DNA of 64,000 nt from contig JALQPE010001722.1 in NCBI GenBank assembly GCA_030407315.1, positions 62,001 through 126,000 of the forward strand. The letters are read 5' to 3'. This DNA is from Asparagopsis taxiformis (taxonomy: Eukaryota; Rhodophyta; Florideophyceae; Bonnemaisoniales; Bonnemaisoniaceae). A program made the position numbers and the translations under genes. The stretch's first letter is position 1. The number at the start of each line of letters is the position of its first letter. Below are positions 10,023 to 32,645 of the stretch, in pieces. The notes below the pieces were generated by a model. It saw only the letters and a program-made list of their open reading frames with translations, searched no databases and was not told the origin of the DNA.

Positions 10023-13000
10023 TTAGACACTAGGACCAGCTGCACGTCCACTTTCTAGCCTCTCCTTCCCTTCTACAATCGCATTCGCTATCCTCTTCAC
10101 AAACGCATTCTGTTTCTCCTTCTCCTCTGCGCTTGTCCCATTCGTCACTCCCTCGCTATTCTCGATTCCAGTCACGCTCCTCAGCGACTGCAGCACTTTG
10201 ACCACATCTCTGATTTGGTACTCGTCCTCCCGCACCATTCGCGGCAGAAAGCCCTCCGTGATAAACACGTTTTGTCCATTCTTATCTACCATGCTGAACA
10301 GCGAATTCTCATCTCTGCACTCATCCAGCGTCAGCCGATAGAAAACAGGAATGATAATCACTCCCCGTTCCCCACCCGCACCATATCGATCCAGGAAACA
10401 CATTAGTTCCCTCATCGTCCATTGCCTCGCTGCAAACTCCGGCGACAGAATCACCACAGCAATCTTGGCGGTCCGCATCGCATGGATCATCTTCTGCGGT
10501 GCGTGCTGCCCTGGCTTCAGCTCGGCCGTGTCCAGAAACACTTTCAAGCCTAGTGCAACTAGTAGATCGTAGAGGGGCTTTGCGATGGTCCACTTGTCGG
10601 GGCCGGCATGACTGATGAAGACGTCATACACCTCTTCTGCTTCACCGGTTATGTCTTGATCTTTGTGTTTGGCGTGGTCTTCTGATAGGGGTGGATGCAG
10701 TTGTGGGAGGGGTGGGGGATTGTTGCACAAATGGAGTTGATTGTTGTCAGTCATGAGATCGATGTGAAATACACTTCTACTCAAACTCGCACACCACAGA
10801 CGGGACTTGGTGTGGGAATAATGCCAACATTTGACCCTATCCTCCAGGGTGGCTATGATGAAACGTTCACCGTCATGCTCACACCTCACCACGCCAAACC
10901 AATCAACGCTGAGAGCTGAAGATTGCTCTCCACCATTTGTTCCCGAGCTGGCAGACCTGTTCGATGCATTCGTCTCGCCTTCAACTTGTGACTCGTCCAG
11001 AACTGCTCCTGAACACACATTCCAGCATATGTGTTTGCTCTCTATCCGATTCCACTCACCATCTTCTCCCCGTATCTCAACATTTGCGACAACAGAGATA
11101 GTGGATCCATCTGCGCTAAACCAGAATGAATCAATACTTCCACGCGGCTCGTCACTTGTTGAATCACCAAAATCTGCCGACGCTCCATCCGATGCCGAAT
11201 TTCTTCGTTGATAGCCGATTGAATCCAACACCGATTGTTTCACATCTGATAGTGTGCGCAGCAACACTCCTTCGCTTACGTTATAGATATTCAGTGCAGA
11301 AGAATCCCCACTATCAGGGAAAGCGACATATTTTCGATCATTCGACACGGTGAATTTTGATGGCGAATATCCAAAATTTGAAATGTTGACACTTGAAACA
11401 ACGCGATCGATACGTTTCGACACGTCACACACGTCGCGTATCTCCAAACACTCCGAACGCCAATTCAATGTCAACATTGTCGCCTCATCTGCAGAGAATT
11501 CAAAGCTCTCCATGTCGGGCAGAAATGTAGCAACTTGACTGTCACCGTTCTGCACATCTCGCGCGTCCCAAACATGAACTCGACTTCCGTTCAGCGCGAA
11601 CAATTCCGACTCATCTCCAATGCACAGGCATCCGATGACCCCCATTGTCGAATGGCGGAGCGTACGCAACAGTGATACGTTTGGACCATCACGGCTCAAT
11701 TTCCACACATGTATCGTACCGCCTCCATCTGCAGAATATAATAAACTTGCATCTTCGCTAAACAAAACACATTTCACCCAATAGTCATGAGCAGTAGAAG
11801 ACGACCATAGTTGCTCGCGTCTCTCCAAATCGAATATTCGTATAGTTCGATCATCCGATGCGGATGCCAGCAGTCGCCCATTACCACTTAACGCTACACT
11901 GTTCACCGCACGTTCGTGCCCTTCCAACACATTTACGGTGTCGGCGAAATTCTCCGCGTCCCATACGCGAATCGTTCCGTCTCTCGACCCAGACACTACA
12001 ACATCTTCACTCCGTCCTGCCGTTAGCGACGTCACAGAGCTGTCATGTGCATCGACAGTTTGGAATGCATTCTGAGCAATTATGCCCCCGTCTTCCATGT
12101 CCATCACCAACAGTCGTCCTTCGGTAGTACCAAGAACAACTCTCCTTCGCTTCGGTAGTACCTGCATGCACTCGATCTTCTCATCTTCTTGCAATTCTGC
12201 GGCCTGGACACAATAGCACATCTTGTACTCCTCCCATACTACTACCCTTCCTCTTGAACTGCACGAATATATCCTTGACGAACGGTCGTAGTACACATCC
12301 AATAGGCGGTCTTCTTCTTCTAGTCCGACGAGAGACATCTTCTTCGATCCATCCCACCCATTGTATACTCCCACCTCCCCATTGCTCCCTCCCACATCCA
12401 CCTCCTCTCCTCCCGCGACAATACACATGCACTCTCCATATTCCTCAACGTCTAGCACACGTTTCAGCATACTTCTTCCACTAGTTAACACCCCAGGCCC
12501 AGCACGGGCCCATGGTACACGCCCATACCGTTCGATACTACTCACTAGCCGCTCTACAATACCGCTCTCGCTTTTCATATCTCGCAATCGTCCAAACAAC
12601 TGGAAACGACATTCGTCCCGATTCCTCATGCAATACGGTACCATGCACAGTCCCATCGCCTTGACTATAACTTCAATATCCCTTGTCACCTTCTTCCCCA
12701 TCGTCGACTTCTCATGTTCAACTATGTACGATTGTAACAGCCGTAGTTCAGCAATGACCTTCTGGAATGGAGCACGGTCCTCGTCCTTATTCATTTGCTC
12801 CACCCACCGATAGTCGGTGAGCAGTCCCATGGCCTCGGCAACCTTTCCAGCACCGAGTAAGTGCCGTACTACATTATTAACGATGTACTTGTCATCACTG
12901 TCTACCTTCCACCATCCAACTTCTCTACCACCACTTCCTACATTCATCCCACTACTTTCGCCTTCTCTACTGCTTCCACTCGCCTGGATCGATGCTACAT

Positions 13001-14318
13001 ATCCATCAACTACTCTCTTGTGCCAAAATCCTACGCCCTCCCTCCCCACAGCCTGTTCAACACACATGTCGTGAACCAAGTCGTGCAGCACCACTCCTAT
13101 CTCCATTCCACCCTCATCTTTAACGAGCGATACAAGACTGTGCCGTGAAAACATACTCACCCCGCACAGCCCATCCCTCACCCCCCATACTTTCTCAATC
13201 GCCCGCAACGGAAGCATCTGCTGCTTCTGCACAATGCAAAACGACCGAAACATTTCTCCCACTCTCATGCCCTCTCCCCTCCACTTCTTCTCCAGTGACC
13301 GTAAACTCGTCTCCACTGCCACCTTCAGTCCACTATGCCTACTCCCCCCTTCCCCAGCTCCGAGTTGTCCAGAGCTCGCCCTCAGGCTCTTCCAGTATCG
13401 CACAATTCCGTTCTCCCCACACCCACCCGCTCCTCTCCCCACCACATCTTGTAAACCACACCCAGCAACACTCAGCGCCAATGGCAGTCCAGCACACATA
13501 TCAATTATGCTGTCCAGCGCATCGCGATTTCGAGCTCCAAGTGTGCCGATGCTCTCTCTGTCGATACCAGCGTAGCAGCATATAATATCAACACATCTAT
13601 CTCCCCGCCAGTCTTCAGCACTCACCCCGATCGACACATCATGTGTGGGCACACGCCCAATCGCCTCATTTCTTGTCGACGATAACACCTTGCAATCTGT
13701 TCCCTCCATCTTTTGGACACCCGTGCAGACCGCATCCACCAGCTTGTATACACTGGCGTCGAGGTCCCACACGTCATCAAACATAAGTAGGAAGCGCTTG
13801 CAGGCGAGATGCTCGACCAGCATGTTCATCAATCTGAGGTGCATATTGGGCTTGGTTGCGAGTCGGGTGAAATCGGAAGAGAAATCTGGGAGTGTTTTAG
13901 CGACAACTTCTTCCAGCTCGTCTAGCACCGTTTGCACAGTGGCGTCATGACCGAGTTGTACAAACCACACGCCATCGCGGAACTTGGCCCACACATCTTC
14001 ATGTCTACCGAGGGCGCGCAGCATGGTTGTTTTGCCTACGCCACCCATGCCAACCACCGCAATGGCGTTTTGGTTTGGGTCTTCGGATAGAACAGCTGTC
14101 TTGACTTTGCTTTCTGGGGTGCGCGAATTACGGGAGAAGTCGAGGACCTGGCGGGCATTGGGGGGAACATAAAAGGCAGGTGGCTGGGGGATGCGGGCTG
14201 GATTTTGGTGGGACAATATGGGAGAGGAGTGCGGCTGCTGGAGATGGGGATGAACAGAGGACGAGGGTATCGGTAGAGTAGAGGGCGATTGGTTGGATGG
14301 GGGAGTATGGGTATTCAT
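10023..14318 (-). CDS. NLR-like protein: NB-ARC, WD40 repeats, C-terminal TIR (NLR-1)
   Basis: An uninterrupted 1431-residue ORF. Residues 1-80 are Pro/Ser-rich. The NB-ARC ATPase follows: P-loop GMGGVGKTT at 90-98, Walker B LLMFDDVWD at about 177-185, VLSSTRNE near 211, GLPLAL at 277-282, and an MHD-like LHDLVHDM in the winged helix. A helical linker with LLTDYRWVE leads into a WD40 region (about 650-1200; clear units include VVSGSRDGTIRVWD and LASASDDRTIRIFD). A TIR domain starts at about 1228 (VYDVFISHAGPDKW), with FYRL near 1327 and Glu near 1304 in WTMREL at the position of the NADase glutamate of catalytic TIRs. NB-ARC proteins are nucleotide switches that oligomerise; TIR domains signal by assembly or NAD cleavage. 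That it is an immune or cell-death receptor is inference. The ancestral N-terminal leader is lost (14542-14640). Its tandem paralogue is 2.65 kb away. Confidence 0.9.
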   Translation of the reverse strand: MNTHTPPSNQSPSTLPIPSSSVHPHLQQPHSSPILSHQNPARIPQPPAFYVPPNARQVLDFSRNSRTPESKVKTAVLSEDPNQNAIAVVGMGGVGKTTMLRALGRHEDVWAKFRDGVWFVQLGHDATVQTVLDELEEVVAKTLPDFSSDFTRLATKPNMHLRLMNMLVEHLACKRFLLMFDDVWDLDASVYKLVDAVCTGVQKMEGTDCKVLSSTRNEAIGRVPTHDVSIGVSAEDWRGDRCVDIICCYAGIDRESIGTLGARNRDALDSIIDMCAGLPLALSVAGCGLQDVVGRGAGGCGENGIVRYWKSLRASSGQLGAGEGGSRHSGLKVAVETSLRSLEKKWRGEGMRVGEMFRSFCIVQKQQMLPLRAIEKVWGVRDGLCGVSMFSRHSLVSLVKDEGGMEIGVVLHDLVHDMCVEQAVGREGVGFWHKRVVDGYVASIQASGSSREGESSGMNVGSGGREVGWWKVDSDDKYIVNNVVRHLLGAGKVAEAMGLLTDYRWVEQMNKDEDRAPFQKVIAELRLLQSYIVEHEKSTMGKKVTRDIEVIVKAMGLCMVPYCMRNRDECRFQLFGRLRDMKSESGIVERLVSSIERYGRVPWARAGPGVLTSGRSMLKRVLDVEEYGECMCIVAGGEEVDVGGSNGEVGVYNGWDGSKKMSLVGLEEEDRLLDVYYDRSSRIYSCSSRGRVVVWEEYKMCYCVQAAELQEDEKIECMQVLPKRRRVVLGTTEGRLLVMDMEDGGIIAQNAFQTVDAHDSSVTSLTAGRSEDVVVSGSRDGTIRVWDAENFADTVNVLEGHERAVNSVALSGNGRLLASASDDRTIRIFDLERREQLWSSSTAHDYWVKCVLFSEDASLLYSADGGGTIHVWKLSRDGPNVSLLRTLRHSTMGVIGCLCIGDESELFALNGSRVHVWDARDVQNGDSQVATFLPDMESFEFSADEATMLTLNWRSECLEIRDVCDVSKRIDRVVSSVNISNFGYSPSKFTVSNDRKYVAFPDSGDSSALNIYNVSEGVLLRTLSDVKQSVLDSIGYQRRNSASDGASADFGDSTSDEPRGSIDSFWFSADGSTISVVANVEIRGEDGEWNRIESKHICWNVCSGAVLDESQVEGETNASNRSASSGTNGGEQSSALSVDWFGVVRCEHDGERFIIATLEDRVKCWHYSHTKSRLWCASLSRSVFHIDLMTDNNQLHLCNNPPPLPQLHPPLSEDHAKHKDQDITGEAEEVYDVFISHAGPDKWTIAKPLYDLLVALGLKVFLDTAELKPGQHAPQKMIHAMRTAKIAVVILSPEFAARQWTMRELMCFLDRYGAGGERGVIIIPVFYRLTLDECRDENSLFSMVDKNGQNVFITEGFLPRMVREDEYQIRDVVKVLQSLRSVTGIENSEGVTNGTSAEEKEKQNAFVKRIANAIVEGKERLESGRAAGPSV

Positions 14319-14541
14319 GATGGTGGGAGATAGGTTGGAAGTGGGGTTCTTATCGCTGTCAACGTGAGGAAGAGAGCAAGTCGGTGGAGGAGATGATTGG
14401 AGTGGAGACGGATGTGAGGGCGAGGAGGTGGTCAGTGATTCAGAGGAAGCAAGTGATGTAGGGGATGCGACGGGAGGTTCGGCAGGAGGTTCAGCGGGAG
14501 ATTGAAGTATCGGGCAGTTGGAGTGGGGTAGATTGAGGAGG

Positions 14542-14640
14542 TTACTGACGTGAAGATGTGCTAGAGACAGAGACAGGATTGGAGTTGGAGCGGTTCGATC
14601 GGCCGTAGCAATTTGTTCTAGCTAGACAAGTGTGTGGAGA
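14542..14640 (-). pseudogene. Remnant of the ancestral N-terminal leader of NLR-1
   Basis: Minus-strand sequence here matches the first codons of the paralogue at 21411 (shared SNPVSVSSTSS). The position of the paralogue's ATG is AGA at 14617-14619, the following Gly codon is Thr and the second Cys is Tyr, so the MGNCC leader is gone. A stop (TAA, 14542-14544) then interrupts the frame before the present ATG at 14318. NLR-1 therefore appears to have been re-started downstream. Confidence 0.75.
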
Positions 14641-15519
14641 GAAGAGGGGAGGAAGAGGGTCAGTTGTGGATTGGGATGGTGGATGGATGGAGCGGATGGA
14701 AAGGACGGACGGGAAGAGTGGAGTAGAAGCAGTAGCGCTGGGCGGTGCGCGGTGTGCGAATGGCAGAATCGAGGAGTCGAGACTTGGAAGGGGAATGGGT
14801 CGGGACGCGTTGGTGCAGCGATACGGCGGTTGGCTGGAGGAATTGTTGTTGAGCACTGGAGGGGTAGAGACGGGCTAGTGGCTCAGGATTGTCGGGTCTG
14901 CAAGTGGAGAGTGGGAATCTCCTGTCCGAGTCGTGACAGCGATGCGAACGCAGAAGAGCTGAAACGGTGCATTGCTGGCTAAATGGTACAACAGAACTGG
15001 ATAAGTGTGCGTTCGCGATGAATCTTCCATGCAGTTTGCATGAGAGTGTACGACTGCGTGTGGGCCCGTCCACGTGTCGAAATACGGTGCGTACACAGCC
15101 GATATACTGTTCTACCATTGGCTACTCAGTACACACCGGCTGGTCGCATGCAATGAAATACTGCCAACTGTCGCGCAGTCTGGGAGTATACACAGCCATG
15201 GGACGTGAGGCCGAGCAGCACCACGACGAATGCGAGCGGAATGACGCGATGCGGATGGGTGCACCGTGGTGGCCGTGGTGGCGGAATCACGACAGCAGGT
15301 GCAGATAATGCTTGACGAACAACTTACCCTTTACAGTACTTACAGTTAGTATCTCTACTTATACTCACTCGCCGTCGCTCACGATCGACAAGGAATAATT
15401 GAAACAACGCATTCCTTTCACAATGCTCTCACGCCTCATTTCCTGGTCGCCATTGCTGGAGGCCGATGGTGAAATACTTTTCTCCAGTGTATCTACATAG
15501 AGTGTGCAAGTTATTCCTC
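14641..15519. promoter_or_regulatory. Upstream region of NLR-1, duplicated from/with NLR-2
   Basis: The first 250 bp match 21412-21600 (purine-rich GAGAGAAGAGGGGAGG block), and 15067-15115 matches 21860-21912 (shared CGTCCACGTGTCGAAATAC and GCGTACACAGCC). These are the likely 5' UTR and promoter of the minus-strand NLR gene. CACGTG in the shared block is a possible bZIP/bHLH-type site. No TATA box is clear. Confidence 0.5.
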
Positions 15520-15810
15520 ACAGCGGAAGCGTTCGACGAGTGCGTACAGCAATCCGACCGGGTACAATCTCCGCGGGACACCGCAAGCGCGACCGAATAC
15601 GGTACTGCGCTGCACTGCGCATTTCTGTGTTATCGAATTTTTGCATATTTTTTCATTTTCCTTCTGCCCATTTCACCCGCACAGCTCTCTCCCCGGTTTC
15701 TGCGAATTACAAAACGCCGCGACAGAAGCGCGGTGCTGTGCGTACCGCTGCATTCCATCTGCGAATTGATTTGTCCCACGACTCATTCTCAAGTTGTTTC
15801 GCTCTTCGTT
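15520..15810. repeat. Duplicated noncoding block U1, copy B
   Basis: Its right part (from about 15690) is partly homologous to 9495-9600 and 40380-40460 around CCATCTGCGAATTG followed by TTGTCCCACGACTCATTC. No protein frame is shared. Confidence 0.55.
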
Positions 15811-16139
15811 TCGATCGATAGTGCGCGATAATACCTGATCACCTCATGTGATCTGTGCCAATTTCCTGCATCTGTTGCGTAATACTCGTACTCTCAAAAT
15901 GTCGTTCGAGCGGGCGAGCGAGCGCACATCTGAAAGCCCCTCTATTGCACCGTCCCACCCACATGATATTGTATTGAATTTCTGATCATGTGAGCATAAC
16001 TAAATTAGAACAAACATAACGTCACATTATATTCGTGTAGCGAAGGCAATCGCTAGTAGCATCGTTGGGCGACTATCACCTTCGGGGTAGTCTGTTTGCA
16101 ACGCGTTGTATTGAGGTTGAATTATGAATTCACAGCCGC
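15811..16139. other. Intergenic stretch without recognised gene
   Basis: AT-richer sequence between the U1 and U2 blocks. I see no ORF with motifs, no RNA gene and no repeat. Confidence 0.6.
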
Positions 16140-16870
16140 GAGAGACTGCGTCATACTTTGATCAAATGCATTAATGTATAAAGTTGCCGACGAAGAGAAG
16201 ACGACGTAACAAAGTGTGCTGTTCGGGATGGTTAGTGCGCGGCGGTATGTCCATGGACGCCCCTGTAGCCAAAGGCAAGTGGTTGCAGTATTGGGTAACG
16301 GAGAGTCGCAATAGCGGTTGACCAAATGAGCTACAGAGCAAGTGCCGATCAATTCCGAGTGATTTGTAGCGCAATGAGTCGCAACGGAATGTTGTGCAAC
16401 AAGTCGCAATCATCAGTTCCATCGCGCTGCGCGATTGCACGGAGAGCTTCGATGGCTTGAGGGAAAGGTACCTCTTGAAAAACTAAATAAAAAAAAACGA
16501 TTTCAGCCGTCGCAATACCTTCATCAGTGCGCTGCGCTCAGGGCACTTGCGTGCGATCAGCGTCCGTCCGCAACTCGAGTCCACACGTCACGACGCTGCC
16601 AAGCTCCTTTCGTCCACCCCGCAAATAATGCAATCGACCTGAGCTGCCAGGCAAACCATGGTCCCCTCACAAACACTCACCGCTGCGGCGCACGGAGGCC
16701 CGCTTTCCGTGTAGTGCTCACCAACAGCATCGCGATCGCGCCAGTATATTTTCGTCCCTGCTGGCCGCTTGCGCCCAGATCGGCCCTGCCGTCTTGCTCA
16801 CATCTGCGTGGTGCTATGTACTCGCGTTGGCCGATGCTCTAGCGGGATATCTCGTGTTCTGCAAATTTTA
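16140..16870. repeat. Duplicated noncoding block U2, copy B
   Basis: Diverged homologue of 7107-7930 and 41230-42050, best conserved at 16560-16700 (CCGCAACTCGA, CACACGTCACG, CGCAAATAATG). It ends about 100 bp before the 3' end of NLR-2. Confidence 0.7.
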
Positions 16871-16968
16871 GCGGTGCTGGTCACCGCAGTTCCCTGCCGT
16901 GCAATCAACTAACAATCATCATGAATCACTCTGTATTTATTAAACTGCGGTCTCCTAAACTGTCCCTC

Positions 16969-19900
16969 TTACGAACCGCTGGGTCCGGCAGCTCGTCCAC
17001 TCTCCAATCGCCTATTCGCCTTTTCAACGGCATCCCCGATACTCTCGACAAACTCCTTCCGCTCGGCGACCTCTTCAGCGCTATCCCCATTCGTTACCCC
17101 ACCATTATTCTCGATCCCCGTCAATAGAGTCACAGCCTGTAGAGCGCCCATAATCTCCTCCATTCTGTAGTGTCCTTCTTTTCCAATCCGCTCTAGAAAG
17201 CCGTCCGCTGCTAGTGCATTCTCGCCAGCATCGTTCTTCAGTCCAGCAAGCAACTTTTGGTCCTTGCACTCATCCAGCGACAATCGATAGAAAACAGGAA
17301 TGATAATCACTCCCCGTTCCCCACCTGCAGCGGATCGATCCAGGAAACACATCAGTTCCTTTATCGTCCATTTCCTCGCCGCAAACTCTGGCGACAGAAT
17401 CACCACAGCAATCTTGGCAGTCCGCATCGCATGGATCATCTTCTGCGGTGCATGCTGCCCAGCCTCCAGTTCCCACTTGTCCAAGAACACTTTGTATCCA
17501 AGCTTAACCAATAGATCGTAGAGGGGCTTTGCGATGGTCCACTTGTCGGGGCCGGCATGACTGACGAAGACATCATACACCTCTTCTGCTTCAGATTCCT
17601 TGTCTTGGTCTTTGTGTTTGGCGTGGTCTTCTGATAGGGGTGGATGCAGTTGTGGGAGGGGTGGGAGAGGTGGGCGATTGTCGTACAATTGGAGTTGATT
17701 GTTGTCAGTCATGAGATCGATGTGAAATAAACCTCCACTCCAGCTCGCAAACCACAGGCGAGAATTGGTCTGGGAATAAAGCCAATATTTGACCCCTTCC
17801 TCCAGGGTGGCTATGGTGAAACATTTGCCGTCATGCTCACACCTCACCTTGCCATGCGAATCATACCTGAGAGCCGAAGATTGCTCTCCACGATTCGTTA
17901 CCGAGCTGGTAGACCTGTTCGATGCATTCGTCTCGCCGTCAACTTGTGACTCGTCCAGAACTGCTCTTGAACATACATTCCAGCATATGCGTTTGCTCTT
18001 CATCCAAGTCCACTCACCATCTTCTCCCCTTACTCGAACTTTTGGGACAACAGAGATAGTGGACCCATCTGCGCTGAACCGCAATGAATCAATCTGTACA
18101 CGTGGCTCGTCACTTGCTGAACCATTGGAATTACCTCTTCCTTCATCAGATGGCGAGTTTCCTCGTTGATTGCTGATTGAAGCCAACACCAATTGTTTCA
18201 CATCTGATAGTGTGCGAAGAAAAACTCCTTCGCTTGCGTCATAGATATACACAACAGAAGCAGGCCAGCTTTTTGCGAAAGCGACATATTTTCGATCATT
18301 CGACACGATGAATTTCAGTGGCCAATGTACATGATGCTTCGAAGTGTCGACACTTGAAACAACGCGATCGATACACTCCGACACGTCACACACGTCGCGT
18401 ATCTCCAGACATTCCGAACGCCAATTCCTTGTTAACAATGTCGCCTCATCTGCAGAGAGCGCAAATCTGTCCACGTCGGGTAGAAATGTAACAACTTGAT
18501 CGTCACGGTCCTCCGCATCTCGCGCGTCCCAAACATGTATTCGATTTTCGTTCAGCGCGAACAGTTCCGACTCATCTCCAATGCACAGCAGTCCGATGAA
18601 TTGCATGGTCGAATGGTGAAGCGTATGCAACAGTGACACATATTGACCATCACTGCTCAATTTCCAAACATGTATCGTACCGTCCCAATCTGCTGAATAC
18701 AACAAACTTGCATCTTCGCTTAACAAAACACAACTCACATAACTGCGATGAGCAGTAGAAGACGACCATAGTTGCTCGCGTCTCTCCAAATCGAATACTC
18801 GTACAGTTCGATCATCCGATGCGAATGCCAGCAGTCGCCCATCACCACTTAACGCTACACTATACACCGCACGTTCGTGCCGTTCCAACTCATTTTCGGT
18901 GTCGGCGAAATTCTCCGCATCCCATACCCGAATCCTTCCGTCTTCTGACCCAGACACTACAACATCTTCACTCCGTCCTGCTGTTAGTGACCTCACATTG
19001 CTGTCATGTGCATCGACAGTTTGGAGTGGATTCTGAGCAATTATGCCCCCGTCTTCCATGTCCATCACAAACAGTCGTCCTTCGCTCGTTCCAAGAACAA
19101 CTCTCCCTCGCTTCGGTAGTACCTGCATGCACTCGATCTTCTCATCTTCTTGCAATCCTTCGGCCTGGACACAATAGCACATCTTGTACTCCTCCCATAC
19201 TACTACCCTTCCTCTTGAACTGCACGAATATATCCTGCTTGACGAACACTCATAGTACACATCCACTACCCACCCTTCTTCTAGTCCGACGAGCGACATC
19301 TTCTTCGATCCATTCCGCCTATTGTACACCCCTACCTTCCCATTCCACCCTCCCACAACCACCTCCTCTCCTCCGCCTAAAAGACACATGCACTCTCCTT
19401 GTTCCTCAACGTCTAGCACACGTTTCAACATGCTTCCTCCACTAGTCAACACCCCAGGCCCAGCACGGGCCCATGGTACACGCCCATACCGTTCGATACT
19501 ACTCACTAGCCGCTCTACGATACCGCTCCCGCTTTTCATATCTCGCAGTCGTCCAAACAACTGGAAAGTGCATTCGTCCCGATTCTTCATGCAATGCGGT
19601 ACCATACACAATCCCATCGCCTTGACTATAACTTCAATATCCCTTGCTACATTCTTGGCCATAGTCTTCTTCTCATGTTCCACTGTATACGATTGTAACA
19701 GCCGCAGTTCAGCAATGACCTTCTGGAATGGAGCACGGTCCTTGTCCTGATTCATTCGCTCCACCCACCGATAGTCGGTGAGAAGTCCCAGTGTCTCAGT
19801 GGCATCTCCAGCACCGAGTAGGTGCCGTACCACATTATCAACGATGTACTTGTCACTGCTGTCTAGCTTCCACCATTCCACCCCTTCATCCTCACCACCG

Positions 19901-21411
19901 TCATCTGCCCCTCCGCTTCTATTTAATGACTCCCGATATCCATCCAGCAGCCTTGCGTGCCACTTTGCGGCTCCACCCCCGCTCCTCGCCGTCTCCATAC
20001 TCATATCCAGCACCAAGTCGTGTACACCTACTCCACCAATCCCGTTCCCGTCTCGAAGCTCAGATGCAAGGCTGTTTCGTGACAAAATTCTCACTCCAGC
20101 CTCTACCTCCCTCACACCCCATAGCTTCTTGATTGCACTCACCGGCAGACACATCTGCTTCTGCATAATGCACAATGACTCAAACATCTCTCCAGCTCTC
20201 AGCTCATCCTCGAGCTCGTCTGTCTCCTTCTCCGACTCCCATTTCTCCTCCACAAACTCTAGACTCGTCTTCAGTGCATAAGCCAAGCCACTATGTCCAT
20301 CTCCGACTTCTGCCCGTGCAAGTCGCCTGGTATTCCGTTGTAAACGACCCCAGAACTCACTGATTGCATTGTGGTCGCAGCGATTTGAGCCTGGGATCAT
20401 CAACTGCTTTACTGCCGATCCAGCAACGCTCAACGTGAGCGGCAGTCCTCCACATGTTCTAAGGATATGGTCTAGGGCGTTTCGATTGTCAAAAGAAAGA
20501 GACGGGATATCACAAGGTTTAAGACATGCATTGAGACAAAAGATTCGGAGATTCTTGTCAGATTCAGAAAGGTATGCATTGACTTGGATGCAACTGTCCC
20601 GTGTGAGAATATCTGCAACGTCCCCATAGCGCGTGGAAGACAACACTTTCATCCATGTACTCTCATTTCCGCGCACATGTTTGCACGTGGCACACACCAA
20701 CTGGTACACCCTTGAATTGATATCCCAAACGTCATCGAAGAGCAGCAGCAATCGCTTCTGCGCCAGACGGTTTGTGAGGTCAGTGATCATCTCGCGGTGC
20801 GAATCCTCAGAGGCAGCCAGCTCCTTGAAGTCTTCCAAAAAATCTGGAAGCGTACTTTTGACGAGTCTTTGGAGCTGGCGAATGAAGGACGGCATCGTGA
20901 CGTCATGACCGAGTTGAAAGAACCACACACCGTCTTTAAATTTAGACCTGATTTCGTTTTTCCTTCCGAGGGCGCACAAGATCGTGGTTTTCCCCACGCC
21001 ACTCATGCCGTAAAGAGCAATGCTTTTCTTTGTGACATCATCAGACAAAAGGTGTCGATAGGTCATATTCTCAGGCGAGTTGGAGTTTGGCAGGAAGTCG
21101 AATATAGCATCTTCGGCGGAGGGGACGTTGAAAGCAAGGTTTGTAACAACTCTAACGTTGGGAACAAGGCAAGTAGGTGGAGGAGATGATTGGAGCAGAG
21201 ACGGACGTGGGGGCGGAGAGGTAGTCGACGGTTCAGACGGAGCAGGTGATGTGGAGGATGTGAGGGGAGATTCGGCAGGAGTTTCGGCGAGAGATCGTGG
21301 TATCGGACGGTCGGAGTGGGTAACCTGAGGAGGTTGGTGAGGTGATGATGTGCTGGAGACAGAGACAGGATTGGAGATGGAGCGGTTAGATATGGCACAG
21401 CAATTTCCCAT
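16969..21411 (-). CDS. NLR-like protein: acylated N-terminus, NB-ARC, WD40 repeats, C-terminal TIR (NLR-2)
   Basis: An uninterrupted 1480-residue ORF paralogous to NLR-1. It begins MGNCCAIS: Gly2 with Cys4 and Cys5 resembles dual N-myristoylation/palmitoylation signals that anchor some plant receptors and kinases to membranes. Residues 10-90 are Ser/Pro-rich. NB-ARC: P-loop GMSGVGKTT at 135-143, Walker B LLLLFDDVWD at 221-230, then VLSSTR and GLPLTL, and a winged-helix VHDLVLDM. The helical linker and WD40 region (about 690-1240) are far closer to NLR-1 than the NB-ARC is. TIR starts near 1276 (VYDVFVSHAGPDKW), with the putative catalytic Glu near 1352 in WTIKEL. Role as an intracellular sensor is inferred from architecture. 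Domain order is the reverse of plant TIR-NB-LRR proteins. Confidence 0.9.
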   Translation of the reverse strand: MGNCCAISNRSISNPVSVSSTSSPHQPPQVTHSDRPIPRSLAETPAESPLTSSTSPAPSEPSTTSPPPRPSLLQSSPPPTCLVPNVRVVTNLAFNVPSAEDAIFDFLPNSNSPENMTYRHLLSDDVTKKSIALYGMSGVGKTTILCALGRKNEIRSKFKDGVWFFQLGHDVTMPSFIRQLQRLVKSTLPDFLEDFKELAASEDSHREMITDLTNRLAQKRLLLLFDDVWDINSRVYQLVCATCKHVRGNESTWMKVLSSTRYGDVADILTRDSCIQVNAYLSESDKNLRIFCLNACLKPCDIPSLSFDNRNALDHILRTCGGLPLTLSVAGSAVKQLMIPGSNRCDHNAISEFWGRLQRNTRRLARAEVGDGHSGLAYALKTSLEFVEEKWESEKETDELEDELRAGEMFESLCIMQKQMCLPVSAIKKLWGVREVEAGVRILSRNSLASELRDGNGIGGVGVHDLVLDMSMETARSGGGAAKWHARLLDGYRESLNRSGGADDGGEDEGVEWWKLDSSDKYIVDNVVRHLLGAGDATETLGLLTDYRWVERMNQDKDRAPFQKVIAELRLLQSYTVEHEKKTMAKNVARDIEVIVKAMGLCMVPHCMKNRDECTFQLFGRLRDMKSGSGIVERLVSSIERYGRVPWARAGPGVLTSGGSMLKRVLDVEEQGECMCLLGGGEEVVVGGWNGKVGVYNRRNGSKKMSLVGLEEGWVVDVYYECSSSRIYSCSSRGRVVVWEEYKMCYCVQAEGLQEDEKIECMQVLPKRGRVVLGTSEGRLFVMDMEDGGIIAQNPLQTVDAHDSNVRSLTAGRSEDVVVSGSEDGRIRVWDAENFADTENELERHERAVYSVALSGDGRLLAFASDDRTVRVFDLERREQLWSSSTAHRSYVSCVLLSEDASLLYSADWDGTIHVWKLSSDGQYVSLLHTLHHSTMQFIGLLCIGDESELFALNENRIHVWDARDAEDRDDQVVTFLPDVDRFALSADEATLLTRNWRSECLEIRDVCDVSECIDRVVSSVDTSKHHVHWPLKFIVSNDRKYVAFAKSWPASVVYIYDASEGVFLRTLSDVKQLVLASISNQRGNSPSDEGRGNSNGSASDEPRVQIDSLRFSADGSTISVVPKVRVRGEDGEWTWMKSKRICWNVCSRAVLDESQVDGETNASNRSTSSVTNRGEQSSALRYDSHGKVRCEHDGKCFTIATLEEGVKYWLYSQTNSRLWFASWSGGLFHIDLMTDNNQLQLYDNRPPLPPLPQLHPPLSEDHAKHKDQDKESEAEEVYDVFVSHAGPDKWTIAKPLYDLLVKLGYKVFLDKWELEAGQHAPQKMIHAMRTAKIAVVILSPEFAARKWTIKELMCFLDRSAAGGERGVIIIPVFYRLSLDECKDQKLLAGLKNDAGENALAADGFLERIGKEGHYRMEEIMGALQAVTLLTGIENNGGVTNGDSAEEVAERKEFVESIGDAVEKANRRLESGRAAGPSGS

Positions 21412-25704: not shown

Positions 25705-27630
25705 ATGCCTCGTAACCCTACAGCGGGACCCTCTAGTGAGGACATAGCGCCTGCCAGCGACTTATCCGATTCGGATCTGATCGCCGAAGAAGGCGTGGTG
25801 ATTAACACCCTGCAAGACCGAGCCGACCGAATCTTCAAGGAACGGTTGGAAGAGTTCAAGGCTGAATTCAGCACCGTCGTCGAGAAGACTGTTCAAGACC
25901 GCAGGGCGGAAATCGTAGACGCTACGGTCAAAACCGTCATGGAACTGGTCGAGCCAAAGCTGTTGGCCGCCAGCCGAGAAGCCACCCAAGATCGGGACGC
26001 CGAGTTCCTAGTGGAAACCTGGAATCAGGTCAAAGCCGAATTCGCTAAGCGCGTGTCCCTTTTGGAAACTCGTCTGGAGGAGCTTTCGATTCACGGCTTT
26101 AGTGCCAGTCCATTAGGACAACAGGAGTTTCCTGCTCGCCGCATCCGATCGGCTGACATCCCTGACCCTACATACGGTAGGGAGGAAGAAGAAGATCCCC
26201 GATTGGATCAAGTCGCAGAAGCAACCCGACACCTGTCGGACCGTGTCGACGCCCTCGCCGAATCACTATCCCAAACAGGGAATATCTCTCGCACGAGACA
26301 GCACACTCGTGCCACCGGATCTATACCGGAAAATCCCTCGTGGGATGATGAAGAAGGACCTCTTGAGGAAGGCTTAGTGCCTTTGAAGGCCCGCGAACCC
26401 GCGTTCGACCTAGTGGTCTCCTATCGGTACTACCGACTCAAGAACAAGTCCCTAACGACCGACACCCCAACGGGTAAATCAAGAAGCTTGTATAAGCTAA
26501 CGGAGAAGATCCGTAATTTCAACGCGTCATTCACGCCGTTCGATGGTACGGAACCCATCGATATCCTCCGGTTCCTCGCGGAATTTCAAGATGCATGTGA
26601 TTCATGCGGAGTCTCGGAGGGAGAAGCTACCAAGTTACTCAAGTATTTCCTGGAAGGAGAACCTCAACGGTTTATCGCCGCTGAGGCGCGGAAGCGCAAG
26701 CTTCTCAACCACCTGCATCAGCAGATCACTTGGCCTCAAGCCGTTAACGCCCTTCTGGCTCGCTACGCGACGGACAATGTCCTAGCGGACGCATATGACG
26801 CAGTAACGCGTATACGGCAAGGGCCGGATGAGGACGAAGCCGCATACGCAGACAGACTGCAGGACGCTGCACTCCTGTGTGCGAACGTCTTCTCGGAAAG
26901 AGACTTGGTCAACTACTACCTCAAGGGCCTACGCCCAGAGGTTAAACACACCGTCAAGGTGACTATAGGCCGCAGTGGCGGAGAAGATTTCCTTGCTGTC
27001 CGTAACCTTGCTAAAGGACTCGGGGACTCTTTACGAGCATCGCTGCCCGCGAAACCTAAGGCCTACCCTACTCGGGAAATCGCGGATCGTAAACGCAAAG
27101 CGTTGCTCGCTACCGTACCCGGAGAACCGGCCGTGATACCGCGGACCCCGCCGCCGACCTTACCTTCCCCTACCGGGAACCCAATGGGCGCGCCAATGCA
27201 GGCCCCTACCCTAACGGGAGAACATCTTAAACTCGCTGAGAGTATGATCCCCGAAGGGGCTGTTACTTGGAGATGCTCTGGCTGTCGCCAACCGGGGCAT
27301 GTGCTATACACTTGTCCTTATTTACCGCCCTCTGTGGGAACTTACTTCGCCTTTGCGAACTACGCTTACCAGCAAGAACCGGAACAGGTTATGCGCCGCC
27401 AACAGCGCCAGTCCAATCGGTTCAACCGGAAAAGGGATTACCCTAAAGCCGTGCTCCAACGGTCAAACCCTCCAACACGCATGGTTGCGTTCGCCGATGA
27501 CGAAAATCATCCCAAATTGGGCCCTCTGAGGCGAGACGTTTTAGAACGTAACGGATCTTCCGTAACGGCTCAAGACGTTGCCGACGCCTTGGAAACCTCC
27601 GACGACTCCGACACGTCGTCGGAAAACTAA
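25705..27630 (+). CDS. Gypsy gag
   Basis: 641 codons from ATG 25705. The N-terminal third is acidic and helical, probably coiled coil (about residues 35-130). The retrotransposon Gag core (about 270-440) has FDGTEPIDILRFLAEFQDAC and YFLEGEPQRF. A CCHC zinc knuckle CSGCRQPGHVLYTC lies near 525-540, followed by a basic tail and an acidic, Asp/Ser-rich end. Gag forms the virus-like particle and binds RNA. The stop TAA shares its last A with the ATG of pol, so pol is likely made by re-initiation or by a -1 shift. Confidence 0.9.
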   Translation: MPRNPTAGPSSEDIAPASDLSDSDLIAEEGVVINTLQDRADRIFKERLEEFKAEFSTVVEKTVQDRRAEIVDATVKTVMELVEPKLLAASREATQDRDAEFLVETWNQVKAEFAKRVSLLETRLEELSIHGFSASPLGQQEFPARRIRSADIPDPTYGREEEEDPRLDQVAEATRHLSDRVDALAESLSQTGNISRTRQHTRATGSIPENPSWDDEEGPLEEGLVPLKAREPAFDLVVSYRYYRLKNKSLTTDTPTGKSRSLYKLTEKIRNFNASFTPFDGTEPIDILRFLAEFQDACDSCGVSEGEATKLLKYFLEGEPQRFIAAEARKRKLLNHLHQQITWPQAVNALLARYATDNVLADAYDAVTRIRQGPDEDEAAYADRLQDAALLCANVFSERDLVNYYLKGLRPEVKHTVKVTIGRSGGEDFLAVRNLAKGLGDSLRASLPAKPKAYPTREIADRKRKALLATVPGEPAVIPRTPPPTLPSPTGNPMGAPMQAPTLTGEHLKLAESMIPEGAVTWRCSGCRQPGHVLYTCPYLPPSVGTYFAFANYAYQQEPEQVMRRQQRQSNRFNRKRDYPKAVLQRSNPPTRMVAFADDENHPKLGPLRRDVLERNGSSVTAQDVADALETSDDSDTSSEN

Positions 27631-30600
27631 TGACGGGGAGTGAGGTGTCGCACTCCCGTCAGGAGGTGGAGCGATTACTCTACTCGGTGGACATCTCACC
27701 ACAACCACCTCCGCAGGAAAAGGCTGCAACTCCCTCTAGGGACCAAAGTCTTTTCCAGACACCAACCCCTTCGGGTTCCCCCACAGGGACTCGAACCTCA
27801 AGGCCGAAAGCCTCATGCCTGCTTAAGGCCGCCCATTACGTAGTAATGGGTTCCATCGGACTCGATCCGTCAATTCTCACGCCCATGCGTATGGTGATGG
27901 ACACCGGGTCCGGACCATCGGTCATCCACGAAAGGAGCTTACCCCACAATTGGGAACAATTCCAAGTCCCTACGGGGAAAGTTCCGCAACTGGCCGATGC
28001 TAACGGCAATCCTCTTCGGATAAAAGGCAAGATAATACTGTCATTACAGTTAGGCCACAAGTCATTTGAGGAAGAATTCTTCGTCGCGCCTAAGTTGGCC
28101 GTACCCCTCATCTTGGGAACTGGGGCAATGAATACCCACGTAGACGCAATTAGGTGCCGGGCCCAACGAATTGATATTCACGACGGCGGGTCGATAGCTA
28201 TCCTAGTGATGTCACCTACGCGTAAAACATCCCCCACCCTTTCGTGCTACGTGGATGCCTCGCGACCCTCTAATGGGATTAACTTAGACCGCCAGCCTCA
28301 TGGCATTCGATTGTCACAAAGTGTGAATGTTCCTCCGCGGAGTCAAGTAACAACTACTGTTGTATGCGCCGGTGGCGGCTTGAGTATACTCTCTCCGAGA
28401 GATCGGATCCTTCACCGACATCGTGTCTCTATCCCGAATGGGGTTGCGGAAGTCATCCCGCGACAGGAATTCCTGACTATTTTAACTAACTTCGGTACAT
28501 CGGACAAGTACCTCCCAAAGGGGACTGTTATAGGCTATGCCCTTCGGACACCTGAACGGCCAATGCGCCCCATGGCTCTCAGCCGTTCTACCCCTTCCTC
28601 CCAAGAGGCCTCCACTATGGTGACTACTCTCCATCAGGAGCAAGAGGCCGAGGCCACCCAACCATCAAGCTGGAAGCAAGAAGTCTCTCTAGACCACCTT
28701 GGTCAAATCCCGTTGAGGGAACGCATCCTTAGCATGCTATCTCGACACGAGTCTATGTGGGATGGATCCCTAGGGGACATCCGCGCTACGGAACACCGAA
28801 TCGACATAGTCGAAGGAAGCAAGCCTAGACGGCAACAACCCTACCGGATGGGACCCGCTCGTCGAGAGTTTTCCCGTAAGGAAATAACCAGCATGCTGGA
28901 AAAAGGAGTGATCGAACCGTCGACCTCCGAATGGGCTAGCCCAGTGGTTCTTGTCCCGAAGAAGGATGGTAAATTACGCTTTTGCGTCGACTACAGGGGT
29001 CTTAACGACATCACTGTCAATGATGTGTACCCCCTTCCACGAATGGATGATTGCATTGACTCCCTCGGAGATGCTCAAGTATTCACCACATTGGATTGTA
29101 ATTCTGGCTATTGGCAGATACCTGTTGCACAGGACGACCGTGAAAAAACGGCATTCACCTCCCATTTGGGGACATATCGCTTTAAGCGTTTGCCTTTTGG
29201 CTTAAAGAACGCTCCGGCAACGTTTCAGCGTGCCATCGACATTATTCTTAGCAGCGTTCGCTGGCAGACCTGTCTGATTTACTTAGACGATGTGATCGTA
29301 TTCTCTCGGGACGAGGCCGAACATCTCCACCATGTGGACCAAGTACTCTCCCTCCTGCGGGAAGCAGGTGTCACCCTGAAGTTGACAAAGTGTCATTTCT
29401 TCGAAAAGAAGGTTGATTACCTGGGGCATGTCGTGATGCCAGGAAAGCTAGCTGTTGCACAGAACGCCACTTCGGCTATCGCTGACGCGATCTTTCCGCA
29501 AACGCCTACGCAAATGCGATCCTTCCTCGGAAGCTGTGGCGTCTTTCGACGATTCATCAAAGGGTATGCCGCAATTGCGCACCCCTTGAACGAAATGCTG
29601 ACCAAAGACAGCCTCCCTAAATTCGGGAAAGAACCTCCTACCGAGGACCAACAGCGCGCGTTCAACGCTCTCAAAGAGGTCATGACCAAGCCGCCGATAC
29701 TGGCTCTACCCAAGTTGGGTCAACCCTACACCGTAGACACGGACGCTTCCGCATACCAAATAGGATGCGCTCTGCTTCAGCAGCAAGGGGAAGAGAACGA
29801 TCTCAAGCCAATTGGCTATTGGTCGCGGACCTTGACTAAACCTGAAAGAGGTTACTCCCCTACGGAGCGTGAATGTCTAGCCGTCGTATGGGCTGTCACT
29901 ATCTTACCTCCATACTTGGAGCAAACAAAGTTTGTAGTCCGGACGGACCATAACGCGCTGCGTTGGCTCATGAATATCAACGACCCTTCAGGGAGACTAT
30001 GCCGTTGGCGCCTCCGACTTGCGGAATTCGACTATCAAATAGTCTACCGACCCGGTAGGGTTCACCAACTACCAGACGCCCTTTCGCGTGTTGAAACTAA
30101 CGGCGAGACGCCCGTCACTATTGACGATGAAATACCAACTCTGTTGGCCACGCACGCACCGCAAGGTGAAACATCCTTGGATGATGATACTAATGTTTGG
30201 TTCTACGACCTTTCTCTAGCAAGAGACCACGCCGAGGAGGTGCCTAATCGCAACGGTACACCCGTCTTGACAACTCATCCGCAAACGGAAAACTATTGCC
30301 CGATAACTCTCCAAGAGTGGCTCGAAGAGCAACGAACAGACGACTTCTGTCAACAGGCCCTGGCCTCGCAGAAATCTGACTCTCTCTTCTTCGAAGACGA
30401 AGACGGTGTCCTTTGTAGGAAGTCCAAATTGGACGGGTCATCCCAAATTGTGGTACCTAAAGCCTTACGGCAACGTCTATTGACGATGTGCCACCACGGC
30501 ATATTGGCAGGACATCCTGGTCAGAACCGCATGTACGACACGATGCGCCTATCTTACTACTTGCCTGCAATGGCTGCGGACATAACCGGAACGGTTGAAC

Positions 30601-32645
30601 GCTGTTCAGCGTGCGCGAGAAACCGATTACGGTTGCGCAAACATGCGAGTACCCTCCAGCTGTTCCCAGCTACCACACCATTGGATGACGTTGCAATTGA
30701 CCTCCTCGGTCCTCTACCTCGTACCAAGAAGGGTAACGTGCACCTACTGGTGATTTCGTGTCGCTTTACCAAGCTAACCCAGGTGGTTCCGCTGCGAAGC
30801 ATTACGGCTTACCATGTGGCAGTAGCCTTTTGTACACATTGGGTGTTTAAGTATGGTCCTCCACGGACATTACTATCCGATAACGGTCCGCAATTTGCGT
30901 CGAAGTTCTTCCAGGCTGTCTGCCTCCAGTTAGGAACGAAGAACGTCTTCACGACGGCATACCATCCCCAGACAAATGGGCAAGTCGAACGGTATAACCG
31001 TACTCTATTGAGCATGCTACGTAATTACGTTAATGATAACCAGGACGACTGGGATGTCTACGCATCAGCGTTAACCTATGCGTACAACACGCACGTGCAT
31101 CGCACAACGGGAACTACACCCTTCGACCTCATACTAAGCCGACCTCCACCGCCATATGCGACACACCATTCGGTGAAAAGGAGGGCAACGCCAGACGCGT
31201 TCACGAAGCAAGACTTCTTACGCCGTATTACGGATACCATTGATATGGCAGGTAAACGCCTTCACAGCGCGCAAGCACGCTACAAGCGTAACTTCGACCG
31301 GTCAATCCGGAAGTCTAAACGACTCATCACTACCGATGATTACGTTTATCTGGATAATCCAGAAGTCCGTGAACGGAACAAGCTAACTCCAATAGCTCAA
31401 GGTCCCTATAGGGTTGTCCGTGCCGGACGGCGAACGGTTTACATCGACCGCGATGGTATCACAGAAAAGGTTAGTCTCGATAGAGTTGCACTCGCTCCGC
31501 GACTGACCGAGGAACCAACCTTACCACCTCGGCTACATGCCGCTAACGCACAAGCGTCACCATCAGGTGCAGATGCCCTCGCGCCAAATACACAACCACG
31601 CCAACCGACAGGCGACGGCCAACAGAACGCACAAAGCGAATCACTTCCGCCAACTCCTAATCAGGAATACCCCTTCAGGGATCAACCATCGTCCCCACGA
31701 CAACCTACAATTAGGATAACACCGGGAAGTAGTGGTTTGGGACAAACCACCCTTCAGGAGGGGGCCCCCGACGCGGTGCGCGTAAGCAAAAATTTTGCAA
31801 CTCCCTCTCGGGATCGACCTTGTAGTCTTTCACCCTTCGGTAACTCACCCACAATTGGGAACGACGCACACGACCCAAGTCGTTCACCCACACGGCCGGT
31901 AACTACCAACCACAATCGCACACAATTGCGAAGAAGTCAACAAAGACGCCACGACAACTCTGCCAATGCAGACCAAGACCAAGACGTCAACCCTGACAGG
32001 GCTCTCCCGTCGCACAAGCGAGCAACTCGCCAAAGTATGGCAGGCACCGACGCCACAGACTCAGCCCCAAGGCATTTGACCAACGCAAACGCGACCAGGC
32101 GACGCCCAATCAAAGCACGCATACAAACGCCGAATTCCCCTCAACGGGACGCGAACCCTCCATCGGGAGCCGAACTTCGCATAGCGAACCAAGCAAGTCA
32201 AGCACCCGCCCATTTGGCAAAACCCAAACCGGGTCGACACACTCGCTCAAGTGCGAAGAAGATAGCCACGGCAAACCCCGTAAGGTCTTTGGAAGCCACC
32301 CCCAATGGGGAACAAGAGAAAGCGCCACAGGGCACGCAGCCGAACTCGGAACGAGTAGCTCTCCCTGAAGGGACGAAGGAAACCCCAGAGGGAAGTAGCG
32401 ACGCCGAACGCGCAACCTCAGAGGAGGAATATCCCATCGATGATCTCATCGATTACGTCACTGATGACGACGGGGAACAATGGTTCCTGGTAAAGTGGTA
32501 TGGCTACCGAAAGCCGACATGGACGCAACGCGCGAACGTCCCCCCTGAATGGGCATCAAGGTACTTCCGTCGAAGACAACACCGCGAAGGTGACCGGCAA
32601 CCACGCCGAGCGCGCACGCGCAAACCCAAGAGAGGGAAGAAGTAG
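27630..32645 (+). CDS. Gypsy pol: protease, RT, RNase H, integrase, chromodomain
   Basis: 1671 codons. Aspartic protease MDTGSGPSVIH (about residue 90); RT (about 400-600) with LPFGLKNAPATFQ and the catalytic YLDDVIVF near 550; RNase H (about 695-820; DTDASAYQIG, RTDHNALRW, LPDALSRV); integrase with the HHCC finger (CHHGILAGHPG ... CSAC, about 951-995) and D-D-E residues in IDLLGPL, SDNGPQF and NGQVERYN; a long low-complexity linker; and a C-terminal chromodomain (about 1605-1650; QWFLVKWYGYRKPTWTQ). The chromodomain of chromoviruses can steer integration to modified histones. The frame has no break. Start chosen at the ATG overlapping the gag stop. Confidence 0.95.
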   Translation: MTGSEVSHSRQEVERLLYSVDISPQPPPQEKAATPSRDQSLFQTPTPSGSPTGTRTSRPKASCLLKAAHYVVMGSIGLDPSILTPMRMVMDTGSGPSVIHERSLPHNWEQFQVPTGKVPQLADANGNPLRIKGKIILSLQLGHKSFEEEFFVAPKLAVPLILGTGAMNTHVDAIRCRAQRIDIHDGGSIAILVMSPTRKTSPTLSCYVDASRPSNGINLDRQPHGIRLSQSVNVPPRSQVTTTVVCAGGGLSILSPRDRILHRHRVSIPNGVAEVIPRQEFLTILTNFGTSDKYLPKGTVIGYALRTPERPMRPMALSRSTPSSQEASTMVTTLHQEQEAEATQPSSWKQEVSLDHLGQIPLRERILSMLSRHESMWDGSLGDIRATEHRIDIVEGSKPRRQQPYRMGPARREFSRKEITSMLEKGVIEPSTSEWASPVVLVPKKDGKLRFCVDYRGLNDITVNDVYPLPRMDDCIDSLGDAQVFTTLDCNSGYWQIPVAQDDREKTAFTSHLGTYRFKRLPFGLKNAPATFQRAIDIILSSVRWQTCLIYLDDVIVFSRDEAEHLHHVDQVLSLLREAGVTLKLTKCHFFEKKVDYLGHVVMPGKLAVAQNATSAIADAIFPQTPTQMRSFLGSCGVFRRFIKGYAAIAHPLNEMLTKDSLPKFGKEPPTEDQQRAFNALKEVMTKPPILALPKLGQPYTVDTDASAYQIGCALLQQQGEENDLKPIGYWSRTLTKPERGYSPTERECLAVVWAVTILPPYLEQTKFVVRTDHNALRWLMNINDPSGRLCRWRLRLAEFDYQIVYRPGRVHQLPDALSRVETNGETPVTIDDEIPTLLATHAPQGETSLDDDTNVWFYDLSLARDHAEEVPNRNGTPVLTTHPQTENYCPITLQEWLEEQRTDDFCQQALASQKSDSLFFEDEDGVLCRKSKLDGSSQIVVPKALRQRLLTMCHHGILAGHPGQNRMYDTMRLSYYLPAMAADITGTVERCSACARNRLRLRKHASTLQLFPATTPLDDVAIDLLGPLPRTKKGNVHLLVISCRFTKLTQVVPLRSITAYHVAVAFCTHWVFKYGPPRTLLSDNGPQFASKFFQAVCLQLGTKNVFTTAYHPQTNGQVERYNRTLLSMLRNYVNDNQDDWDVYASALTYAYNTHVHRTTGTTPFDLILSRPPPPYATHHSVKRRATPDAFTKQDFLRRITDTIDMAGKRLHSAQARYKRNFDRSIRKSKRLITTDDYVYLDNPEVRERNKLTPIAQGPYRVVRAGRRTVYIDRDGITEKVSLDRVALAPRLTEEPTLPPRLHAANAQASPSGADALAPNTQPRQPTGDGQQNAQSESLPPTPNQEYPFRDQPSSPRQPTIRITPGSSGLGQTTLQEGAPDAVRVSKNFATPSRDRPCSLSPFGNSPTIGNDAHDPSRSPTRPVTTNHNRTQLRRSQQRRHDNSANADQDQDVNPDRALPSHKRATRQSMAGTDATDSAPRHLTNANATRRRPIKARIQTPNSPQRDANPPSGAELRIANQASQAPAHLAKPKPGRHTRSSAKKIATANPVRSLEATPNGEQEKAPQGTQPNSERVALPEGTKETPEGSSDAERATSEEEYPIDDLIDYVTDDDGEQWFLVKWYGYRKPTWTQRANVPPEWASRYFRRRQHREGDRQPRRARTRKPKRGKK

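Follow-up and report, generated by a model that had tools for sequence, protein, structure and literature searches.

Two NB-ARC/WD40 proteins with C-terminal TIR domains in the red alga Asparagopsis taxiformis and the candidate receptor family to which they belong

The genome of the red alga Asparagopsis taxiformis encodes two large proteins, P0001 and P0002, each combining an NB-ARC domain, WD40 repeats and a C-terminal TIR domain in a single open reading frame (ORF). Their genes lie in the 64,000-nt stretch analysed here ("the window": assembly GCA_030407315.1, contig JALQPE010001722.1, positions 62,001-126,000 of the forward strand), and all coordinates without a locus label are window positions. 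It is fairly probable that both belong to a large, fast-evolving repertoire of membrane-tethered, Apaf-1-like receptors of the nucleotide-binding leucine-rich repeat (NLR) class, with a plant-type output that cleaves nicotinamide adenine dinucleotide (NAD). A first-pass annotation of this DNA had described them as a pair; there are indeed two genes, but profile counts over the whole assembly (141.5 Mb, 3156 contigs) make them members of a large family.

In both ORFs, NB-ARC (82 bits for residues 76-287 of P0001 and 80 bits for residues 120-336 of P0002, cut-off 23.5), WD40 (74 and 82 bits) and a C-terminal TIR_2 (63 bits, residues 1233-1332, and 70 bits, residues 1281-1384) score above the curated Pfam cut-offs, which bears out the domains first proposed. 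The motifs listed in the first-pass annotation are present as well. The P-loop reads GMGGVGKTT in P0001 and GMSGVGKTT in P0002, Walker B and GLPL are kept in both, the MHD-like motif is LHDL or VHDL in a by-eye reading, and the glutamates of the TIR WxxxE motif are residues 1304 and 1352. The TIR stands at the back end of both proteins, the opposite of the plant TIR-NB-LRR order, as had been noted. The sensor place is occupied by WD40 propellers, with no leucine-rich repeat (LRR) among the best 25 of the 38 and 39 Pfam families matched by the two proteins; nor does an N-terminal family such as CARD occur among these, and the N-terminal region is Ser/Pro-rich in both. The predicted model of P0002 places a helical domain and WD40 propellers after the NB-ARC, consistent with the Apaf1-like core suggested earlier, and the Apaf-1 structure 3sfz superposes on model residues 1-717.

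The family carries a putative acylation signal at its N-terminus. Regions were fetched for 20 of the 114 NB-ARC places found in the genome (the L-numbered loci), and 10 of these, together with the window's two genes, provide 12 long proteins. Eleven of the 12 start with MGxxx[SA] (MGNCCA, MGKCFS, MGNCFA, MGHFFS, MGTIFA), with a Cys at residue 4 or 5 in nine of them, a putative myristoylation-type start. In 10 of the 11, no earlier ATG precedes this MG in its frame; at L066, where one does stand before MGNCC, the start was picked by homology. The remaining 10 fetched loci lie in several frames and were left out of this count; among them, a frame of L063 has the MG, and those of L057 and L059 are without it. 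In the C-terminal-TIR proteins P0003, P0004, P0005, P0048 and P0049, four out of five start with MGxxx[SA], P0048 starting inside the NB-ARC, and none of 15 Chondrus crispus gene models with an N-terminal TIR has an MG start. The exception among the 12 is P0001, whose 5' end is broken. Its close relative L066 bears an intact signal, and the start methionine of P0001 is an internal residue there. Judged from these sequences, P0001 has lost its N-terminal signal. The earlier statement that both genes look functional is not fully supported, P0001 having lost the family's N-terminal signal via start loss, an in-frame stop and a frameshift. L058, which is interrupted by a stop ahead of its TIR, is carried with L066 on contig C1845, either the other haplotype or a paralogous cluster.

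Haplotigs included, the whole assembly yields 114 or more matches to NB-ARC, with 114 of 414 candidates scored, and 150 or more to TIR, with 150 of 315 scored. Judged on their scores and frame lengths, 105 of these NB-ARC matches are distinct, and the remaining ones may be haplotigs; 51 lie in frames of at least 1300 aa. NB-ARC and TIR share one frame, that is, equal frame length on the same contig and strand, in 44 of the 114 listed matches, and the TIR is downstream in all 44, at 2.8-3.6 kb. Of the other 70, 19 have an unmatched TIR match on their own strand no more than 6 kb downstream, and three have one upstream at 2.8-5.0 kb, which may belong to a neighbouring gene. As 35 more TIR matches lie in frames of at least 1200 aa holding no listed NB-ARC match, the family totals are lower bounds. 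A TIR encoded by a separate gene is ruled out, and one on a separate transcript is made improbable as far as reading frames tell, by the frame shared with NB-ARC in both window genes and in 44 of the listed matches in all; chance ORFs are ruled out by a ratio of nonsynonymous to synonymous divergence (dN/dS, w) well below 1 in TIR and NB-ARC. Two copies, L034:1222-2658 (contig C549) and L035:1105-1884 (contig C781), pass directly from NB-ARC to TIR, the WD40 part missing; they are possible internal deletion products.

The two window genes differ unevenly along their length. Compared in blocks of 60 alignment columns, P0001 and P0002 share 36-53% identity up to P0001 residue 482 (apart from the first block, with 11 aligned residues), 73-90% at 483-961, 63-75% at 962-1200, 83-89% at 1201-1317 and 47-54% beyond. 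The first WD40 part of P0001 is equally near L066 and P0002 (83% each), despite an NB-ARC 97% identical to that of L066, and its second WD40 part is 76% identical to L066 and 69% to P0002. Synonymous divergence (dS) between P0001 and P0002 is saturated in the NB-ARC, 1.36 in the winged helix, 0.16-0.22 in the linker and WD40 part, 0.40 in the TIR and again saturated in the tail; between L055 and L061 it does not exceed 0.21 through the end of the WD40 part, then rises to 2.5 in the TIR. In a breakpoint scan, the observed split was reached by 0 of 500 permutations in eight of nine pairs and by 21 of 500 in the ninth (P2-L058), with three breakpoints at residue 511-512 of P0002 or L058 and two at the TIR (1264-1270 and 1334). 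Such a scan alone cannot separate recombination from uneven selection, whereas jumps in dS do; because synonymous divergence jumps between modules too, recombination is the likely cause of the mosaic identity. The NB-ARC, WD40 and TIR modules thus appear to be swapped as cassettes among paralogues.

Selection differs among the modules. With pairs of dS at or above 0.6 in a module excluded (17, 17, 20, 21, 21 and 7 of 21 used), pooled dN/dS is 0.39 in the NB-ARC, 0.29 in the winged helix, 0.30 in the helical domain, 0.66 and 0.73 in the first and second WD40 parts, and 0.20 in the TIR (95% bootstrap interval 0.13-0.30). These ratios indicate purifying selection on TIR and NB-ARC; for the P0001-L066 NB-ARC, w is 0.19. 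Among 600 WD40 sites, 216 are variable in one paralogue group, 232 in the other and 110 in both (hypergeometric p 3e-6), the shared ones numbering 54 versus 35.6 expected in the first part and 56 versus 48.4 in the second. In propeller 1, the top loops (D-A and B-C, on predicted strands) have a dN of 0.290 and a w of 1.15 (0.74-1.86), against 0.095 and 0.61 in the bottom loops and a w of 0.44 in the strands; this excess of top over bottom was reached by none of 10000 permutations. Within the group to which the window genes belong (P0001, P0002, L066, L058), the top-loop w is 1.78 (1.02-3.30). The most variable sites lie in loops in 16 of 17 cases, by the D-A loop end or the B-C loop start; the split into top and bottom was drawn after these sites were known, the face being taken from strand order and strand D of blade 4 placed by hand. 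On the predicted model, loops on the top face of propeller 1 evolve at three times the rate of those on the bottom.

A variable sensor face of this kind would also suit allorecognition rather than pathogen sensing, that is, recognition of self and non-self when cells fuse or when the alga meets kin or parasitic red algae, as by the fungal het-d/het-e NLRs. The hot residues of propeller 1 indeed occupy the D-A and B-C loop places at which positive selection is described for the WD40 repeats of Podospora het-d/het-e in the sections consulted of PMC1805685. Any peptide-binding propeller, however, would vary at those positions, and the red-algal repeats, unlike those of Podospora, are not near-identical internally; near-identical WD repeats are ruled out by the lack of any tandem array of WD40 length. 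Allorecognition is an unlikely role.

The TIR of P0002, in its predicted model, comes closest among the structures compared to those of the plant TIR-type NLRs (TNLs) RUN1, RPV1, L6 and RPS4. From 44 TIR segments in the loci, near-copies (>93% identical), one short row and one wrongly cut row were dropped; in the remaining 24, aligned with the window's two, the W and E of WxxxE are invariant (26 of 26 rows). The model keeps the fold together with the W/E pair, which favours the catalytic pocket assumed at first. On these catalytic residues and the modelled fold, the TIRs would cleave NAD through the conserved Glu, and some of the plant TIRs nearest in fold are known NADases. The SH pair of the plant TIR AE interface is replaced in most rows by another residue followed by Pro, so that TIR assembly may differ from that of TNLs. 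This replacement would agree with a non-enzymatic TIR, an assembly or adaptor domain signalling via recruited partners, as would the lack of any match to EDS1_EP (PF18117) or LSDAT_euk in the genome, a lack of little weight as no control genome matched either. Such an adaptor is nonetheless quite improbable given the invariant W and E, the purifying selection on the TIR and the plant folds nearest to it.

Relatives of these TIRs are found in two domain orders. A search with the P0002 TIR region yields 19 proteins: P0003, P0048 and P0049, 15 NB-ARC/TIR proteins of Chondrus crispus (P0050-P0064), 14 of which possess WD40 Pfam domains (not P0060), and P0065. The latter is a Sel1-repeat protein of Chondrus that gives no NB-ARC match and bears its red-algal-type TIR at the C-terminus, so that Chondrus too has a TIR in this position, on another scaffold. 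The TIRs of this genome and of Chondrus are 50-56% identical. In all 15 Chondrus NB-ARC proteins, the TIR lies within residues 4-128, ahead of the NB-ARC, whereas it ends the proteins of this genome and of the set P0003, P0004, P0005, P0048 and P0049; the TIR has therefore seemingly changed ends between red algae. A search of the A. taxiformis genome with the N-terminal-TIR protein P0052 gives 61 rows, all starting at query residue 223 or later, so that none reaches the N-terminal TIR part among the 34 of 1122 candidates scored. P0003 and L064 share 96.5% identity, and P0048 agrees with L013 at 97.6% of 206 residues in the TIR region; P0003 and P0048 probably come from this or a sister species, to judge by this near-identity, and are therefore not counted as independent species.

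In the NB-ARC tree, red-algal proteins form one clade (98/95), with the long-branch row P0033 inside, beside the Chondrus group; the C-terminal-TIR proteins are a subclade (96/84), support for Chondrus alone is 79/42, and plant rows are the sister group. Red-algal TIRs also form one clade (96/89), in which the C-terminal TIRs of P0004 and P0005 fall near those of Chondrus with weak support (81/63). The same building blocks thus occur in two orders among the red-algal sequences compared, and, given P0004 and P0005, a single change of TIR position is not proved. Both trees carry long-branch warnings, the TIR tree also a few-columns warning; the root was placed on rows not forming one side of a branch, and the labels "plant" and "bac" are our own assignment, covering P0016, P0017, P0031, P0033 and P0042. 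In a scan of prokaryotes, the sole relative among 94 pattern matches is a 1176-aa protein of an Amoebophilaceae bacterium (metagenome-assembled genome, WTJV01000008.1; L067:4737-8267). Its N-terminus resembles that of a lipoprotein; its TIR shares 44% identity with the red-algal query and precedes a region with a P-loop that is NACHT-like by eye. The protein may reflect transfer between eukaryote and symbiont.

The proposed receptor reads, from its N-terminus, acyl anchor, disordered Ser/Pro linker, NB-ARC, Apaf-1-like helical domain, WD40 propeller 1, propeller region 2, flexible linker and plant-type TIR. The acylated N-terminus would hold the protein at the membrane, and the propellers would keep the NB-ARC off in the fashion of Apaf-1. 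A non-self or modified-self ligand might then bind the top face of propeller 1, where the variation is observed, leading to nucleotide exchange and oligomerisation, after which the C-terminal TIRs would assemble and cleave NAD, signalling immunity or cell death. Paralogues would renew the repertoire by exchanging NB-ARC, WD40 and TIR cassettes. In an Apaf-1-type wheel, N-termini converge at the hub and propellers stand at the rim; the lipid anchor would therefore occupy the hub and the enzyme the rim, inverting the arrangement of plant TNLs. That these genes constitute an NLR class of reversed polarity, with anchored hub, rim enzyme, about 100 or more genes (haplotigs not separated), swapped cassettes and one propeller 1 face driven to vary, is advanced more tentatively, and could well turn out otherwise. 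On its sequence, P0002 is probably a complete receptor, and P0001 is best explained as a mosaic copy lacking the anchor, either soluble or on its way out.

Several observations weigh against this proposal. Frames below 1300 aa hold 63 of the 114 NB-ARC matches, so that many copies are broken, cut or spliced. P0001 is without the MGxxx[SA] start, and L059, which shares its contig, has no MG start in its first frame either. The SH pair is replaced in the TIRs. The whole-WD40 average of dN/dS is below 1, for the top loops the bootstrap interval from both groups together spans 1, and one group has a raised dS there as well (0.302 versus 0.157 in the bottom loops). One NB-ARC pair, L054-L055, has a w of 0.99 at a dS of 0.022. 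A reading of both genes as decaying remnants of a repeat family rich in transposons, with no present function, is suggested by the lost start of P0001, the many short frames and the dense transposons, but is very improbable in view of open frames of 1431 and 1480 codons, the low dN/dS of TIR and NB-ARC over the comparisons used, and that of the P0001-L066 NB-ARC.

The features of the two genes are collected in Table 1. The segmental duplication proposed at first is confirmed: blocks that match each other recur at a spacing of 6.95-6.96 kb across both genes, and of 6.79 kb over the 5' leader and flank; the duplication takes in the 5' flank as well. A promoter scan of the flank, with bacterial patterns only, produced nothing useful. 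The transposons said to surround the locus are likewise present, namely gag and pol, with RVT_1, RNase H and integrase domains, in the interval 25705-32645, and a copia-type fragment matching RVT_2 in 38114-39328. A 1070-aa ORF at 46441-49653 has a PTM/DIR17-type Tudor domain and near-identical repeat copies on other contigs; its first 2001 bases have 11 further full-length copies in the genome at 91-99% identity, and it is probably a mobile element carrying a Tudor domain. A third family member (L059, C1601:22502-29002) lies on the window's contig, C1601, outside the window, split over three frames; the first methionine of its NB-ARC frame gives MNTHTPPSN, as in P0001. The genome is that of a red alga, as assumed, because plastid phycobilisome genes are present: a 224-kb contig holds nine near-full-length and two partial phycobilisome-protein matches.

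Table 1. Features of the P0001 and P0002 genes in the window
Feature	Position	Strand	Remarks
P0001	10023..14318	minus	1431 aa, one open frame; first ATG of frame internal relative to the homologous L066 protein; N-terminal signal absent
P0001 TIR (1231-1335)	10314..10628	minus	Glu1304 at 10407-10409
P0001 NB-ARC (76-287)	13458..14093	minus	44% identical to that of P0002, 97% to that of L066
Decayed leader upstream of P0001	14542..14619	minus	decayed copy of the family's signal; ATG replaced (14617-14619); 25 codons, then a TAA stop in frame (14542-14544); some 14 bases downstream of this, one inserted base
P0002	16969..21411	minus	NB-ARC, WD40, C-terminal TIR; 1480 aa, single open frame, start MGNCCAISN
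P0002 TIR (1279-1386)	17254..17577	minus	plant-type fold in model; Glu1352 at 17356-17358
P0002 second beta-propeller region (966-1240)	17692..18516	minus	predicted model, lower confidence; blade number not settled
P0002 first WD40 propeller (662-962)	18526..19428	minus	predicted model, 7 blades; top loops hypervariable
P0002 helical domain after winged helix (526-640)	19492..19836	minus	predicted model, Apaf-1 HD2-like
P0002 NB-ARC (120-336)	20404..21054	minus	Pfam and motifs
P0002 residues 1-10, MGNCCAISNR	21382..21411	minus	putative N-myristoylation and palmitoylation signal
5' flank block upstream of P0002	21835..21927	minus	84% shared with 15042-15134

Among known systems, Apaf-1 shares the NB-ARC, helical domain and propellers in the same order, the second propeller here being modelled at lower confidence; Apaf-1 has an N-terminal CARD and no TIR. 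Plant TNLs (RUN1, RPV1, L6, RPS4) share the NB-ARC, the closest TIR folds, a sister NB-ARC clade and WxxxE, but possess an N-terminal TIR and an LRR sensor, whereas the A. taxiformis proteins have a C-terminal TIR, WD40 repeats and no SH pair. A plant-TNL-like TIR fold at the opposite end of the receptor offers a sharp test of whether TIR activation needs induced proximity at the hub. RPS5, an acylated coiled-coil NLR (CNL), is alike in the acylation-type N-terminus of an NLR, but such plant CNLs have a coiled coil and LRR and no TIR. Putative acylation sites in some CNLs are mentioned in the consulted part of PMC11467418.

The nearest system is that of Chondrus crispus, for which the portions consulted of PMC7145615 count 61 NB genes, 58 with WD40 and 23 of those 58 with a TIR, and those of PMC9806590 give the architecture as TIR-NBARC-WD40, with NB-ARCs sister to those of plants. 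NB-ARC/WD40/TIR receptors with the TIR in front are thus already known from these sources. P0050-P0064 resemble the present proteins in their homologous NB-ARC and TIR, WD40 in 14 of 15 and many paralogues, and differ by an N-terminal TIR in all 15 and no MG start, against a C-terminal TIR and an acylation-type signal here. In the part of the open-licence literature surveyed, no C-terminal-TIR NLR family of red algae was found, nor, as far as searches show, are reversed order, anchor signal, cassette mosaics and a hypervariable sensor face described together. The analysis now places in a red alga a large set of candidate intracellular receptors that module exchange would renew. Fungal NWD NLRs (HET-D, HET-E, HNWD), as presented in the same sections of PMC1805685, have the WD40 sensor, the variable D-A and B-C loop residues and reshuffling within the family in common with it, so that the sensor face varies in a red alga as it does in fungal allorecognition genes; they differ by a NACHT domain and the exchange of single near-identical WD repeats, whereas the red-algal proteins have an NB-ARC, whole modules exchanged and a C-terminal TIR.

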